Assembly (NCBI GenBank): GCA_014323865.1
Contig: JACONG010000010.1
Span: forward strand, 248,001-312,000
DNA length: 64,000 nt
Source of the DNA: Rhodospirillales bacterium
GTDB taxonomy: Bacteria; Pseudomonadota; Alphaproteobacteria; SP197
Direction: 5' to 3'
Below the pieces are notes generated by a model. That model saw only the letters and a list, made by a program, of their open reading frames with translations. It made no database searches and was not told the origin of the DNA. How positions within the stretch are numbered: position 1 is the first letter of the stretch; each line of letters starts with the position of its first letter. The position numbers and the translations under genes are program-made. This document shows, one piece after another, positions 16,526 through 26,893 of the stretch.

Positions 16526-18884
<2,359 letters not shown>

Positions 18885-18945
18885 GTCTCGCTTCTGGTCA
18901 TGGGGTTTCAACGGGTTACGGTGCCCAAGGGGCCATGGCGACGAA

Positions 18946-18975
18946 TGGGGACGGAATCCTTCGATCCCGTCCCCA
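18946..18975 (-). other. Strong hairpin in the metY leader
   Basis: A perfect 9-bp stem (TGGGGACGG with CCGTCCCCA) with a 12-nt loop lies about 60 nt upstream of the metY start. No T-run follows on the minus strand, so it is not an intrinsic terminator. It may stabilise the mRNA or affect ribosome access. Confidence 0.5.
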
Positions 18976-19027
18976 TCGCCGACCCCGACAGGGCTGCTCC
19001 GCCGCCGTTATGGGTAGCCGCTGCCGG

Positions 19028-19070
19028 GGTGAACACAACCGGACGCACAACCGGACGCAGAACCGGACGC
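19028..19070. repeat. 12-13-nt tandem repeat in the metY leader
   Basis: Three near-copies of ACAACCGGACGC occur in a row. They are non-coding and lie between the SAM-II aptamers and the metY start. Confidence 0.7.
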
Positions 19071-19193
19071 ACACAGGCCCGCAAGCCACGGCCTTCGCGC
19101 CTGCGGCTTGTCGCCTGTCTGTCCGGTCCTGTCTTCTGTCTGATGCTGCGTTTTGCAACACGCTGAATCTCCGGTCCGCATCCTCTGGGCCCA

Positions 19194-19220
19194 CGGAGAT
19201 CGCTGGAGATCGCTCCGTGG
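19194..19220 (-). other. Hairpin directly after the second SAM-II aptamer
   Basis: CCACGGAG and CTCCGTGG form an 8-bp stem around an 11-14-nt loop immediately downstream (minus strand) of the proximal aptamer. It has no T-run, so if it is an expression platform it would not act as a classical terminator. Confidence 0.4.
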
Positions 19221-19221
19221 C

Positions 19222-19269
19222 GCTTTAGCGTTTGGTGACGCGGGTGCAAGCTGCCCGTCAAATCCCGCG
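19222..19269 (-). ncRNA. SAM-II riboswitch, proximal copy
   Basis: On the minus strand CGCGGG is followed by ATTTGACGGGCAGCTTGCA and CCCGCG, which pairs perfectly with the first segment (P1). TCACCAAACGCTAAAGCG follows, the SAM-II pseudoknot end with its GCTAAAG signature. SAM-II binds S-adenosylmethionine and is found in Alphaproteobacteria upstream of methionine-synthesis genes; metY lies downstream here. The distance to the metY start (about 340 nt) is long. A hairpin without a T-run follows at once. Confidence 0.8.
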
Positions 19270-19328
19270 GGTCCGTCAGGGTGGACCATGCCAAACGAAA
19301 GAAACTCCCAACCGGAAAGACGGCCAAC

Positions 19329-19363
19329 AAAAAAGACCGCCCCAGCCTTGTGCCGTGCGGTCT
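19329..19363 (-). terminator. Intrinsic terminator between the two SAM-II aptamers
   Basis: On the minus strand AGACCGC (19363-19357) pairs with GCGGTCT (19340-19334) across a 16-nt loop and is followed by a run of T (19334-19329). It lies 14 nt downstream of the distal SAM-II aptamer, so it is the likely expression platform for that copy. Confidence 0.75.
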
Positions 19364-19376
19364 CAGCGAACCCCGG

Positions 19377-19430
19377 GCGCTTTAGCTGGTATTTGTATCG
19401 CGCCCCGCAAGCTGTCGCTCAAATCGGCGC
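19377..19430 (-). ncRNA. SAM-II riboswitch, distal copy
   Basis: On the minus strand GCGCC, GATTTGAGCGACAGCTTGC, and a GGGGCGC segment that pairs with the first (P1), are followed by GATACAAATACCA and GCTAAAGCGC. This is the same SAM-II layout as the proximal copy (ATTTGA, AGCTTGC and GCTAAAGCG conserved), but with different P1 bases that still pair. An intrinsic terminator follows directly. Confidence 0.8.
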
Positions 19431-19470
19431 TGCCCGAACTGGTACTGCCAGAACCGGCATTCACGGGCTC

Positions 19471-19498
19471 ACTTAAGCATCGCCCCGGCGTTTGTCAA
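19471..19498 (-). promoter_or_regulatory. Putative promoter of the metY leader transcript
   Basis: On the minus strand a perfect -35 box TTGACA (19498-19493) and TTAAGT (19476-19471) are separated by 16 nt. Transcription would start near 19464 and read first into the distal SAM-II aptamer. Confidence 0.6.
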
Positions 19499-20299: not shown

Positions 20300-20366
20300 C
20301 CGCCCCGCACAAAACCCCATACAAAACGCCCCCCACACACACAAGACCCCCTGCAATCGACGCGAC

Positions 20367-23300
20367 ATGAGCACACTTGAGGACATCGGCAGCGGAGCGC
20401 TGGTGCGCGGCATAGCGCCCAATCGCGCCGTTCAGGTGGTGAGCGTCGATTGGATCGGTACGCAAGCCGTCAATGTCGTCTATCGCGACGGCAACGGCGC
20501 TGTCGCGGAATGCACGCTCTTCCGCGACGACGAACACCGTCTCGACATCGAGGCGAGGGGCCGCCCGTGGTCTTTCGATGCCGATGGAGCCCTCTTGCGC
20601 CTTGTCATCGAGGCCAACCGCATCGCCCTCGCGCATCATTTCGACCCCTTCCTCGCAATCCATACAAGCCTTGTCGACCCGCTGCCGCACCAGATTTCGG
20701 CAGTCTATGGCGAGATGCTGCCCCGTCAGCCCCTGCGCTTCCTGCTCGCCGACGACCCCGGCGCAGGCAAGACCGTCATGGCCGGGCTTCTCATGAAGGA
20801 GCTCATGGCCCGCAGCGACCTCGAGCGCTGCCTTGTCGTCGTCCCCGGAAGCTTGGTCGAGCAATGGCAGGACGAGCTTGGCGAAAAATTCGCTCTCGAA
20901 TTCGATATCCTGACGCGCGACATGATCGCGACCTCCCGCTCGGGCAATCCGTTCAACGACCGCAATCATCTGATCGTTCGGCTCGATGTCCTCGCGCGCA
21001 ACGAGGATCTTCAGGAAAAGCTCATGCAGGCCCGCGAATGGGACCTGGTGATCTGCGACGAGGCACACAGGATGGCGGCGACCTGTTCCGGCGGCTAGGT
21101 AAAATATACCAGGCGCTACCAGGTCGGCCAGAAGCTCGGACAGCTCTGCCGCCACCTCTTGCTGATGTCGGCAACGCCCCATAACGGCAAGGAAGCGGAC
21201 TTCCAGCTTTTCATGGCCCTTCTCGATGGCGACCGCTTCGAGGGCCGCTTCCGCGATGGCGTCCATTATGCCGATACGCAGGACATGATGCGCCGCCTCA
21301 CAAAGGAGGAACTGCTGCGTTTCGATGGCCGCCCGCTCTTCCCCGAACGCCGCGCCTACACGGTCAAATACGACCTCTCGCCGAAAGAGGCCGCCCTTTA
21401 TACGGCCGTCACCGACTATGTGCGGACAGAGATGAACCGCGTGCAGCGTTTCACCGATACAGACGGCAGGAAGCGCAACAATGTCGGCTTCGCACTCCAG
21501 ATTCTTCAGCGCCGCCTCGTTTCATCGCCTGCCGCCATCTATCGCTCTCTCGAACGCCGCCGCGAGCGCCTGGAAAACGAACTGTCCGAAGCCCGCCTTG
21601 CGGCAAGGGGAAACCCTGTGCACCGGGCCGCTGGCGCTCCCGACGATGACAGGTTGCGCCATATCGCGGGACGCGATCACAGAGAGATGTTCGCGGAACG
21701 CGATCGGGAAGACATGCTCGAGGAATTCGGCCAGGAAGAGATTGACGAGATCGAGGACCTGATCTCGACCGCTGCGACAAGTGCCGAAACGGCCGGGCAA
21801 CTGGCCATCGAGGTCGCCACCCTCAAGGGTCTTGAGGACATGGCATTGGACGTGCTTCAGGCCGGCGAGGATACGAAATGGCAACAGCTCAACCGTATCC
21901 TCGATGACGACCTGATGACCGACAGGGACGGCAACCGCCGAAAACTTGTCATTTTCACCGAACCCAAGGACACGCTGCATTATCTCGCGGACAAGGTCCG
22001 TGGCCGCCTCGGCAGGCCCGAGGCCGTGGCCGTCATCCATGGCGGCGTGGCGCGTGAGGAGAGGCGCAAGGTGATCGCCCGTTTCATGCAGGATCGCGAC
22101 CTCATCGTCCTGATCGCGAACGATGCTGCGGGCGAGGGCGTCAACCTTCAGCGCGGCCATCTCATGGTCAACTACGATCTGCCCTGGAATCCGAACAGGA
22201 TCGAGCAGCGCTTCGGTCGCATCCACCGCATCGGGCAAACCGAGGTCTGCCACCTCTGGAACATCGTCGCCGCCGATACCCGTGAGGGCGAGGTCTACGC
22301 CAGACTGCTCGAAAAGCTGGAAGACGCGCGGGAGGCTCTCGGTGGCCGCGTCTACGATGTTCTCGGCGAACTCTTCGAGGGCACCCCGCTCAGGGACCTC
22401 CTGTTCGAGGCGATCCGCTATGGCGAGCAGGATGACGTGCGCGCGCGCCTGTTCAGGCAGGTCGACGGTGCCGTCGATCGGCAGCACCTGCGCAACCTGC
22501 TTGCCCGCCGCGCCCTGACCGATGACACCATGTCGGAAGCCCGGGTCCATGAACTGGGCCTGGAAATGGAACAGGCGGAAGCGCGACGTTTGCAGCCGCA
22601 TCATGTCCAGAGCTTCTTTATCGAGGCCTTCCGGCATCTTGGCGGCAGGCTGAAAGCCCGCGAGGACGGCCGCTGGGAAATAACCCATGTCCCCGCCCGC
22701 ATTCGCGAGCGCGACCGCCAGATCGGCATGGGCGCGCCCGTGCAGAAGAAATACGAACGCATCTGTTTCGAGAAAGCCAGGATCGACCGCCAGCCCGTGG
22801 CAACCTTTGTCTGCCCCGGCCACCCCTTGCTTGAGGCCACCACAAGCATCCTCCGTGAACAATACGGCAGGCTCATGAGGCAGGGCGCGGTCATGGTCGA
22901 TGACACCGATGACGGCACCGCAATCTCTGTCATTGTCCTGATCGAGCACAGCGTTCAGGATGGCCGCCAGGCAAGCACCCCCAACGCGCAGACCCCCAAC
23001 GCGCAGACCCTCAGCCCGCAGACCCCCGGCCCGCATATCGTCTCCAGCACATTGCAATTCGCCGCAATCGACAAATCCGGCACCGCGACAAACGCCGGCA
23101 TGGCCCCCCATCTCGATCTGCGCCCCGCGACCCCCGCCGACATCGCACTCCTTGGCGACCGGCTGCAAGACGACGGATTCACCGCCGACATCGAGCAATC
23201 CGCCCTCGACTTCGCCACCGTCGAACTCGCCCGGCGTCACCTGGCGGACGTCCGGGCGCGTCGCCTGCCCGCAATCGAAAAGGCCGGGCGGGAAGTCGAG

Positions 23301-23999
23301 GCGCGCCTCACGAAAGAGATAAACTATTGGGACAGCCGCGCCTTCGAGCTTCAGGAACAGGAAAAGGCCGGCAAAAAGACCCGCCTTGGCTGGCAGAATG
23401 CCCGCCGCCGCGCCGAGGACCTCGCCGAACGCCTCAGGCTGCGCCAGGATCGGCTTGAGGAGGAAAAATGCATGACCTCCCGCCCCCCTTGCCTGCGCGG
23501 TCGCATGGTCGTCGTGCCCCGAGGCCTCCTCGATGAATGCCACAGGAATCAGGACCTCGCCAATCAAGGCCTCGATGAATCTCCCGCCCCACCGCAATTT
23601 GCCGAGGACGGCGCGGCCCGGCGCAGGATCGAGCTCGCCGCCATGGAAGCGGTCATGGCAACCGAGAAAGCCCTTGGCAATGAGCCGACCGACGTCTCCG
23701 CCCGCAAGATCGGCTACGATATCGAGTCCCTCGATCCCGCAACCCGCCATTGGCGCTTCATCGAGGTGAAGGGCCGCATCGACGGCGCGAACACCGTCAT
23801 GATCACGCGCCAGGAAGTGATCACATCCCTGAACAAGCCGGAACAATTCATCCTTGCCATCGTGAGTGTCGAAAACGGTTTCGCGGGCGAGCCCCGCTAT
23901 ATTCGCGGCGCACTCGACGAGCGCGAGCCCCGCTTCGATCAGAACGCCATCCAGTACGATCTCAAACGCCTGCTGGAGCGGGCAGCGGCCCCAACATGA
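20367..23999 (+). pseudogene. SNF2-type helicase with C-terminal DUF3883, interrupted by an in-frame amber codon
   Basis: The reading frame from ATG 20367 to TGA 23999 (1,210 codons) is broken only by TAG at 21096-21098. Before it lie Walker A (LADDPGAGKTVMAGLL) and the DEAH box (ICDEAHRM). After it the same frame continues VKYTRRYQVGQ, LMSATPHNGKEADFQLFM, and the helicase motif VI EQRFGRIHRIGQ. Relatives have Gly-Gly-Glu-Val-Lys-Tyr here, so GAG to TAG is the likely change. The C-terminus has GYDIES and FIEVKG near residues 1115-1135, the DUF3883 pattern, which looks nuclease-like. Its stop overlaps the start of the DUF1156 methyltransferase (ATGA). Such helicases are part of restriction-like phage defence. 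The protein is probably inactive unless the codon is suppressed or a sequence error. Confidence 0.85.
22976..23030 (+). repeat. Short in-frame repeat in the helicase gene
   Basis: Near-copies of a 15-nt unit (CCCAACGCGCAGACC) encode PNAQT-PNAQT-LSPQT in a linker. They look like slippage expansions. Confidence 0.7.
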
Positions 24000-26893
24000 C
24001 AGACCCCGGCATGACAGAGCCCCCACACGACAGGCCCCCCACAAAAAAGCTCATAGAGGTCGCAATCCCGCTTGAGGCCATCAACAAGGCCTCGGTGAGA
24101 GAAAAATCCATCCGGCAGGGCCATCCCTCGACCCTCCATTTGTGGTGGTCACGCAAGCCGCTGGCCGCCTGCCGTGCCGTGCTGTTTGCCCAACTCGTCG
24201 ACGATCCCTCCGGCCATGTCGATACGCTTCTTGAGGATGAGGATCTCAGGCAGCGCGCGCAAGAGGCCCTCGCCGCCCGTCGCGCCCGACACGCACGCGA
24301 CGGGGACGACGGCAAGCCGATCCCGCCAGACGACAAGCCGGTTACACTGGAAGACGTGAAAGACATGATCGTCGAACTGGAGCGCAAGCGCCTTTTCGGC
24401 ATCGTCGAAGACCTTGTGGTCTGGGAAAACAGCACAAACGAGGAGGTCCTTGAGCGCGCCCGGCACGAAATTCGCCGCTGCTTCCCCGAAGAAGAAGACA
24501 TGCCACGGGTCCACGACCCGTTTTCCGGCGGTGCATCGATCCCCCTTGAGGCCCAGCGTCTCGGGATGCCCTCCCATGCCTCGGACCTGAATCCGGTGGC
24601 CGCCCTCATCGGCAAGGCAATGATCGAACTGCCACCCAAATTTGCCGATCGCCCCCCCGTTCATCCCGGCGCGAAAGACCGGATGTCATACCGTGGTGCC
24701 GAAGGCCTTGCCGAGGACATACTGTTCTATGCGAGACTGCTGAGCGAAGCCGCGTGGCAAAAGATCGGCCACCTCTACCCCCCGGTTACACTGTCCGACC
24801 GTGACGGCGGCGGGCAGGCAACCGTTCTTGCCTGGCTCTGGGCAAGAACCGTCGCCAGCCCGAATCCCGCCGTCGGGGGCGCACACATACCCCTCGTCTC
24901 GACCTTCTGGCTCTGCAAGAAACCCAAAAAAAAGGCCTGGGTCGAACCGATCGTTTCGGGAACCGACATCGACTTTGCGGTGAGATATGGCGAACCCGAT
25001 GACGCGGAAGCCGTGGCCGCAGGCACAAAGGCGGGGCGCGGTGCCAATTTCACCTGTCTGATCACAGGCGACGCCGTTCCGCCCGCTTACGTCAAGGCCG
25101 AAGGCATGGCAGGCCGGATGGGCTGGAAACTCATGGCCATCGTCGCCGAGGGGCGCGGGGGACGACGTTATGCTTCACCCACAAAAGCCCATGAGGAAAT
25201 TGCCTTTTCGCAAACCCCGGAATGGCGACCGGACGGTCCTCTTTCTTATGACCCCCGAAATGTGATGGTGAGCAACTACGGCCTGACACAGGTATCCGAC
25301 CTTTTTATGAACCGGCAAACCATTGCGCTGAAGACATTCCTCGACTGTATCCCCGAAATCCTCTCCGGGATCGAGACATCCGATGACGATTCGGATGCCT
25401 ACAGGAACGCGCTTGCCACCTATCTGGCCATGGGTGTCAGCAGGCTTGCGAACAGACAATCGACGGGCAGTGTTTGGAACACTGGTCGCGAAACCGTTGA
25501 ACATGTGTTTGCAACACATGCTTTGCCGATGCGTTGGAACACGGCGGAAGGCAATCCCTTTTCGACATCGAGCGGCAACTTTATCGGCCAGGTGAAATAT
25601 CTGGCCAAGGCCGTCGCCGCCCTGCCGGCCTCGCAGCCCGGTGGAAGCGTAAGCCAGCGCCCCGCGCAGACCGTGGATTTCACCGGCACCGTCATGTCAA
25701 CCGACCCACCCTATTACGACAACGTGCCTTATGCGAATATCTCGGATTTTTTCTATGTCTGGCTGCGCCACGCATTGAAAAGACATTATCCCGATCTTTT
25801 CCAGACCGTACTTGTGCCCAAGGCGGAAGAACTCGTTGCCGACAATTATCGGCACGGGGATCGCGACCGGGCGGATCAATTCTTTCTTGAAGGCATGACC
25901 GAGGTGCTGCGCCACATGGCGAAGCAGGGGCGCAGCGATATCCCGGCAACCATCTGGTATGCCTTCCGGCAAAACGAGGTCGACGAGGACGGCACCGCAT
26001 CGAAGGGATGGGCGACCTTCCTGCAAGCGGTGATATCAGCCGGTTATCATGTCGGCGCAACCTGGCCCGTGCGGACCGAGCTGGTGAGCAGCCTGAAAAA
26101 GGAGCGCAATGCCCTTTCCACATCCGTGGTGCTGTCCTGTCGCCAGCGCCCCCCCGATGCCCCGACAATGACCCGTTCGGAGTTCCTGCACACCCTGAAA
26201 CGCGAACTGCCGACGGCCCTGGAAGACATGCAGCGCGCGAACATCGCCCCGGTCGATCTTCCCCAGGCCTCCATCGGTCCGGGAATCGGGATTTTCAGTC
26301 GCTGCAAGGCCGTGCTGGAGAGCGACGACAGCAAGATGCCCGTCAGGACCGCATTGCAGATCGTCAACCGGGAGCTGGACGAATTTTTCTCCGCACTGGA
26401 AGGCGAATTCGATCCCGAGACCCGCTTCGCCCTCAACTGGTTTGCCCAGCATGGCCATGACAGGGGGCCGTTCAGAGATGCCGACAGTCTGGCCCGGGCC
26501 AGAGCCATCTCGGTCGACAGTGTGGACCATGCCGGCATCGTCGAGAGCGCCGCAGGAAACGTCCGCATTCTCACCCGCGATGAACTTGCCGGGGATTGGG
26601 ACCCCGCCACCGATACGCATCTGACGGTCTGGGAATGCTGCCAGCATCTCATCCGCACACTGCAAGACGGCGGCGAACGTCAAGCGGCAATCCTTCTGAA
26701 GAAGATCGGTCCGCAGAGGGCCGACGCCGTAAAGGATTTGGCATACAGGCTTCACGACATCGCATCGAAGCAGAAGAATGCAGGGGAAGCCAATGCCTGC
26801 AACGGCCTCATTGCGGTTTGGCCGGATCTGACACAGCAAGCCGCTTCCATCCATGACATGGACAGCAACCGCCAGACAGACTTTAATCTTTAG
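23996..26893 (+). CDS. DUF1156 family DNA methyltransferase, defence-associated
   Basis: The 965-residue protein begins KKLIEVAIPLEAINKASVRE and SIRQGHPSTLHLWWSRKPLA, the DUF1156 signature. A SAM-binding region follows near residue 174 (VHDPFSGGASIPLEAQRLG, DLNPVAALIGKA), and the catalytic motif TDPPYYDNVPYANISDFFY lies near residue 568. The DPPY form indicates an N6-adenine or N4-cytosine DNA methyltransferase. I recall this family being annotated as anti-phage-associated alongside DUF499 proteins. It overlaps the helicase stop by 4 nt and is followed 12 nt later by the DUF499 gene, so the three form one operon. The likely role is self-marking of host DNA or regulation of the helicase-nuclease. 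Confidence 0.92.
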   Translation: MTDPGMTEPPHDRPPTKKLIEVAIPLEAINKASVREKSIRQGHPSTLHLWWSRKPLAACRAVLFAQLVDDPSGHVDTLLEDEDLRQRAQEALAARRARHARDGDDGKPIPPDDKPVTLEDVKDMIVELERKRLFGIVEDLVVWENSTNEEVLERARHEIRRCFPEEEDMPRVHDPFSGGASIPLEAQRLGMPSHASDLNPVAALIGKAMIELPPKFADRPPVHPGAKDRMSYRGAEGLAEDILFYARLLSEAAWQKIGHLYPPVTLSDRDGGGQATVLAWLWARTVASPNPAVGGAHIPLVSTFWLCKKPKKKAWVEPIVSGTDIDFAVRYGEPDDAEAVAAGTKAGRGANFTCLITGDAVPPAYVKAEGMAGRMGWKLMAIVAEGRGGRRYASPTKAHEEIAFSQTPEWRPDGPLSYDPRNVMVSNYGLTQVSDLFMNRQTIALKTFLDCIPEILSGIETSDDDSDAYRNALATYLAMGVSRLANRQSTGSVWNTGRETVEHVFATHALPMRWNTAEGNPFSTSSGNFIGQVKYLAKAVAALPASQPGGSVSQRPAQTVDFTGTVMSTDPPYYDNVPYANISDFFYVWLRHALKRHYPDLFQTVLVPKAEELVADNYRHGDRDRADQFFLEGMTEVLRHMAKQGRSDIPATIWYAFRQNEVDEDGTASKGWATFLQAVISAGYHVGATWPVRTELVSSLKKERNALSTSVVLSCRQRPPDAPTMTRSEFLHTLKRELPTALEDMQRANIAPVDLPQASIGPGIGIFSRCKAVLESDDSKMPVRTALQIVNRELDEFFSALEGEFDPETRFALNWFAQHGHDRGPFRDADSLARARAISVDSVDHAGIVESAAGNVRILTRDELAGDWDPATDTHLTVWECCQHLIRTLQDGGERQAAILLKKIGPQRADAVKDLAYRLHDIASKQKNAGEANACNGLIAVWPDLTQQAASIHDMDSNRQTDFNL

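Follow-up and report, generated by a model that had tools for sequence, protein, structure and literature searches.

Single SAM-II riboswitches (RF00521, the metA element; PMC1273637) have a P1 stem, a pseudoknot P2 and conserved core motifs, are found with methionine genes, and can act through a terminator platform. Tandem leaders are also on record, 44 of them for SAM-II, some with a terminator first and a switch at the ribosome-binding site (RBS) second (PMC9481103). In these tandems, described as pseudo-cooperative or bi-mechanism, two aptamers share one leader, a terminator follows the first, and the platform of the second controls access to the ribosome site. The tandem SAM-II/SAM-V leader of Ca. 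Pelagibacter (PMC11508383, PMC9481103) likewise has a terminator first and a translation switch second, both for the same ligand. In the S. meliloti metA SAM-II, the Shine-Dalgarno (SD) sequence lies inside the riboswitch platform, not adjacent to the gene start (PMC9373788).

The 64-kb stretch of DNA analysed here (the window) has two SAM-II (SAM_alpha) aptamers on its minus strand, which is the strand of every feature described below unless stated otherwise: a distal copy (19430-19376) and a proximal copy (19269-19219), with about 110 nt from the end of the first to the start of the second. The element shares P1, P2 (two of three pairs in the distal copy), the core motifs, the methionine genes and the terminator platform with single SAM-II, but is present twice and scores below the Rfam cut-off. 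As in the bi-mechanism tandems, one leader carries both aptamers and an intrinsic terminator comes after the first, here with an antiterminator; since tandems with the terminator first and the RBS switch second have been published (PMC9481103), the arrangement is not new. It differs from them in that osmC, the gene originally behind the second SD, was deleted, which leaves this SD to a leader ORF and the methionine gene about 285 nt downstream. The second aptamer is SAM-II rather than the SAM-V of Ca. Pelagibacter, and S. meliloti metA has a single aptamer and a spacing of 74 nt, compared with two aptamers, a leader ORF and about 285 nt in the window. The initial annotation held that SAM-II normally occurs singly, which needs qualifying in view of the 44 published tandems and the sites sampled here: of the 95 proximal-type sites for which 400 nt upstream could be read, 21 have a second SAM-II just upstream, and the linker has a T-run in 20 of these 21. 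The locus is probably a two-mechanism tandem SAM-II leader, descended from that of an osmC-metY-hemB operon, whose proximal switch now acts on the leader ORF. The tandem itself is a well-anchored case of a known architecture, and both its expression platforms are supported by covariation.

A composite pattern (ATTTGA-N3..8-AGCTTGC-N12..30-GCTAAAGCGCC) has exactly two matches in the window, 19424-19376 and 19263-19219, and none in 100 dinucleotide-preserving shuffles. In a cmscan search of 601 nt against 4227 families, RF00521 matched 19440-19361 and 19278-19205 at 29.6 bits each (E about 1e-4); the gathering score is 36 bits, which neither copy reaches, and no family gave a gathering-level match in the window. 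The two above-threshold Rfam matches that the initial annotation had named as confirmation therefore formally failed to appear, while its two aptamers were found where it had placed them. That cut-off is set by curation and does not define a structural feature, and the distal copy is taken as a divergent SAM-II member because the core motifs (ATTTGA, GCTTGC and GCTAAAG, in order), P1, the platform and the context hold; the proximal copy likewise has the core motifs and P1. The P1 stems pair with different bases, as had been noticed (GCGCC/GGCGC in the distal copy, CGCGGG/CCCGCG in the proximal). That both copies are real although below the cut-off is further indicated by the distal ortholog in the relative L013, which scores 38.0 bits and so exceeds it, by a pseudoknot register (16-50, 15-51, 14-52) that covaries over 32 non-redundant SAM-II sites, and by the conserved positions of both copies in relatives, which are mostly metagenome assemblies of uncertain accuracy. 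Genus orthologs of the proximal copy all score 25.7-30.1 bits. The proximal pseudoknot has all three pairs (C16-G50, G15-C51, G14-C52); the distal one, read from its sequence, has two (16-50 and 14-52) and an A.C mismatch at 15-51. The observation of two aptamers is confirmed at the level of sequence, and SAM is presumably the ligand of both. Elsewhere in the same genome, a SAM_alpha scoring 73 bits precedes a metZ-like gene, and a weak one lies near a cysG-like gene. Other known families in the long leader (6S, SRP, cobalamin and similar) were considered and rejected, as Rfam gave only SAM_alpha and noise.

The distal aptamer (19376-19430; P1, ATTTGA, AGCTTGC, GCTAAAGCGCC) lies downstream of a putative leader promoter (19470-19498) with TTGACA at 19498-19493 and a poor -10 at about 19475-19470. 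The distal copies of L013, L022 and L024 likewise have a TTGACA upstream, but a sigma-70 consensus scan found no promoter, and this one is therefore regarded as weak. The stem and T-run that had been seen after the distal copy form an intrinsic terminator, T1 (19329-19364; GAGACCGC ... GCGGTCTT, then the T-run), with 8 bp plus an inner stem followed by T6 and a fold of -18.6 kcal/mol. T1 is one of two matches in a terminator consensus scan and is conserved in L013, L022, L024 and L038-L041. A predicted antiterminator helix (19342-19389) pairs CCAGC (19389-19385), which contains the start of the conserved GCUAAA of the distal aptamer, with GCUGG (19346-19342), just before the terminator 3' arm; because this helix crosses the terminator stem, only one of the two can form at a time. 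Across 25 non-redundant SAM-II sites with terminators, the strands paired at -9.5 kcal/mol with their own partners and at -7.4 kcal/mol with swapped partners, and none of 5000 permutations was as good, a preference that supports the antiterminator by covariation. The pairs range over UGCGGCU/AGCCGCG, UUCAGCU/AGCUGAG and CCAGC/GCUGG.

The proximal aptamer (19219-19269; P1, ATTTGA, GGGCAGCTTGC, GCTAAAGCGCC) is preceded directly 5' of P1 by a hairpin, P0 (19270-19287; GGTCC/GGACC), for which alignment A1 gives modest support, with 84% of cells paired and no two-sided changes. It is followed, as had been described, by a hairpin without a T-run. This hairpin, H1 (19191-19220; CCACGGAG/CTCCGTGG), overlaps the end of P2, and its 3' arm bears an anti-SD CUCC that could pair instead with a GGAG about 20 nt downstream. 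The alternative hairpin, H2 (19166-19201), joins the anti-SD GATCTCCG (19201-19194) to the SD region CGGAGATT (19173-19166). H1 and H2 are mutually exclusive and would free or sequester the SD. An H1-type hairpin follows many proximal-type SAM-II sites, and a model of the proximal copy with its platform (R1) matches 15 of the 16 family genomes, with one strong locus in each; an order-level search returned the same 16 genomes. Covariation of H2 within the genus was not clearly above shuffles (47/500), which is indecisive because most H2 pairs never vary there. With too few varying pairs in the genus, the swap test was extended to 57 sites sharing this kind of platform, where anti-SD and SD paired at -11.6 kcal/mol with their own partners and -9.7 kcal/mol when swapped, with 0 of 10000 permutations as good. 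The proximal platform is, judging by these predicted helices, a ribosome-site platform, and in most genomes that have it the ATG after the SD opens a gene, often of sulfur or methionine metabolism. In the window only, the H1 loop contains a 10-nt duplication (GCGATCTCCA), so that the anti-SD CTCC is present twice.

Two steps of control can be proposed. In the first, which is well supported, the GCUAAA strand of the distal aptamer would pair before the terminator 3' arm when SAM is absent, forming the antiterminator and allowing transcription to continue; with SAM bound, the strand would be locked in the pseudoknot, T1 would form and the leader transcript would end early. In the second, well supported as a fold, H1 would hide the anti-SD and leave the SD free when SAM is absent, whereas with SAM bound the proximal pseudoknot would take the base of H1, and the released anti-SD would pair with the SD in H2 and block initiation. 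The initial annotation had suggested two checkpoints of different type. The difference in type stands, the first being transcriptional and the second at a ribosome site; the part that does not stand is the implied target, since the second SD is about 285 nt from metY and was ancestrally that of osmC.

The proximal SD, GGAG at 19172-19169, is about 285 nt upstream of the ATG of metY (18884). The metY gene (17541-18884), for O-acetylhomoserine aminocarboxypropyltransferase, matches TIGR01326 at 598.8 bits (cut-off 495) and PF01053, and is followed by hemB (16526-17434), for delta-aminolevulinic acid dehydratase (PF00490, 421 bits, and synteny), the next gene of the ancestral operon. In the sister genera g2 and g3, where the two-aptamer leader is conserved, the order is tandem-osmC-metY-hemB and the proximal SD is at the start of osmC (PF02566); the anti-SD/SD helix covaries, and the same ribosome site belongs to the leader ORF in the window. 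No osmC ortholog at 66% or more was found in any of the 10 genus genomes, although osmC end readings ('...ASITAAE*' and '...ASIMAAE*') are still visible in L013 and L024. On this gene order, the proximal switch is evidently not metY's own ribosome-site checkpoint and served osmC ancestrally. With osmC deleted behind the proximal SD, it most likely now gates a short leader ORF in this genus. In the window this ORF (18916-19161) has 81 codons, starts at a GTG (19161) 7 nt after the SD and stops 31 nt before the metY ATG. A start codon 6-8 nt after the SD is present as ATG, GTG or TTG in eight of nine genus members, the exception being L013 with ATA; its retention through these changes is taken as selection for initiation there, though the peptide is not conserved. 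A conserved leader peptide was ruled out, as frames and sequences differ among relatives, and in L022 the ORF has only 5 codons. In the window, three tandem 12-nt repeats (TGCGTCCGGTTx) at about 19070-19030, absent from relatives, read CVRFCVRLCVRLC in the leader-ORF frame. L013 (G002) has one in-frame TAA in metY, and the genome search likewise gave one TAA; with the ATA leader start, this may be early decay or assembly error.

Between the SD and metY is a 3' module (18940-19034; alignment A2, model R2), consisting of a stem-loop, CCCCGGCAG.GGC ... GGCGGCGGAG..GCCCUGUCGGGG, and a hairpin, T2 (18974-18950). The module originated in the 3' end of osmC and the spacer between osmC and metY; it overlaps the osmC stop codon in g2 and g3 and was retained after osmC was lost. 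It is present in 13 of the 16 family genomes, the loop GGCGGCGGAG is invariant, and none of 500 shuffles was as good in stem covariation. Rfam has no match to it. It is possibly a third control element before metY.

In five of the ten genus genomes (G001, G004, G005, G006 and G009), the metY ortholog is missing too, and each of the five retains the proximal copy, which there precedes hemB. Identity of the proximal aptamer and platform between lineages is 0.87-0.98, against 0.43-0.81 at the fourfold sites of hemB there. G009 has an intact proximal copy but only a remnant of the distal one, mutated in all three core motifs. It is tentatively proposed, as a reading with a real but somewhat less than even chance of being right, that the translational SAM-II outlived osmC, and in five genomes metY also, under strong selection as gatekeeper of a non-conserved leader ORF that precedes metY or hemB, coupling the SAM level to the downstream gene through leader translation and not through that gene's own start site. 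We infer translation of the leader ORF and an effect of that translation on metY here and on hemB where metY was lost; the route could be polarity or Rho, coupling (given the 31 nt between the leader stop and metY), or ribosome recruitment at a distance. Other genomes, too, have SAM-II of the proximal platform type that gate tiny ORFs instead of genes. No description of an orphaned but still selected proximal switch was found in the open-access literature searched. The deletion series, with osmC lost, metY lost, the distal copy decayed and the proximal copy intact, offers a direct test of riboswitch upkeep without the original gene, and allows SAM regulation of hemB to be tested in these bacteria.

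Other explanations are less probable. With the 3' module it could form a separate transcript, either a riboswitch sRNA of about 300 nt or a hemB leader, from its own promoter; a TTGACA-N16/17-TAGATA-like promoter is found just upstream in L017, L019, L020 and L021, in L022 and L024 a terminator-like hairpin followed by a T-run closes the 3' module, and S. meliloti has riboswitch sRNAs with proposed trans roles (PMC9373788). This is unlikely for the window, where no such promoter is seen and T2 is without a T-run, as it is in the hemB-only clade; a stand-alone non-coding RNA is disfavoured because the g2 and g3 element is the ribosome-site switch of osmC and the 3' module overlaps the osmC stop. 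Somewhat less probable still is a digital pair acting on metY, in which the distal copy terminates and the proximal SD recruits 30S subunits for the remote start. The SD of the S. meliloti metA SAM-II is reported to act on a start 74 nt away (PMC9373788), and helices between SD and metY (the 3' module and T2) could shorten the path, but the start of metY is about 285 nt away here, several relatives have SD-like sequences that belong to metY itself, and the proximal copy persists where metY is gone. That the proximal copy is a functionless relic of the osmC riboswitch is improbable: none of the ten genus genomes retains its target gene, the leader peptide lacks conservation and the start codon is lost in L013, but neutral decay would sit poorly with the excess of proximal identity over the hemB fourfold sites, with an intact copy in lineages lacking both osmC and metY while the distal copy of G009 decayed, and with valid start codons kept through substitutions. 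A chance likeness, or a non-SAM RNA resembling SAM-II, would agree with two scores under the Rfam cut-off but is highly improbable given the shuffles, helices (pseudoknot, antiterminator and anti-SD) that covary over many genomes, and neighbours such as metY, metZ, metX-like, cysG-like and MetN genes.

Tiny cysteine-rich ORFs follow the same SAM-II ribosome-site platform at L076, L082, L084, L087, L089, L098, L110, L117, L118, L120, L123, L126, L132 and L145, in Ferrovibrio, Ancylobacter, Magnetovibrio and relatives; examples are MTATRKTRLCCCR, MTMCCRRPKRA, MSASCCCRPRP and MTKMCCPCCV. In most cases the next gene lies a few hundred nt downstream, and in L082, L117 and L118 it encodes a MetN-type ABC ATPase. 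These sites look like a SAM riboswitch gating a leader peptide of cysteine codons. In the genus, a further single SAM-II with a terminator is found beside a siroheme-synthase (CysG N-terminal-like) gene (L014, L015, L016, L023, L025 and L028), under the Rfam cut-off in several members. On the plus strand of the window, 20364-26893 encodes an HmaA/HmaB defence pair, an SNF2 helicase and an adenine methylase identified by PADLOC; HmaA is split over two reading frames, with the break near 21040-21159, and looks broken or misassembled.
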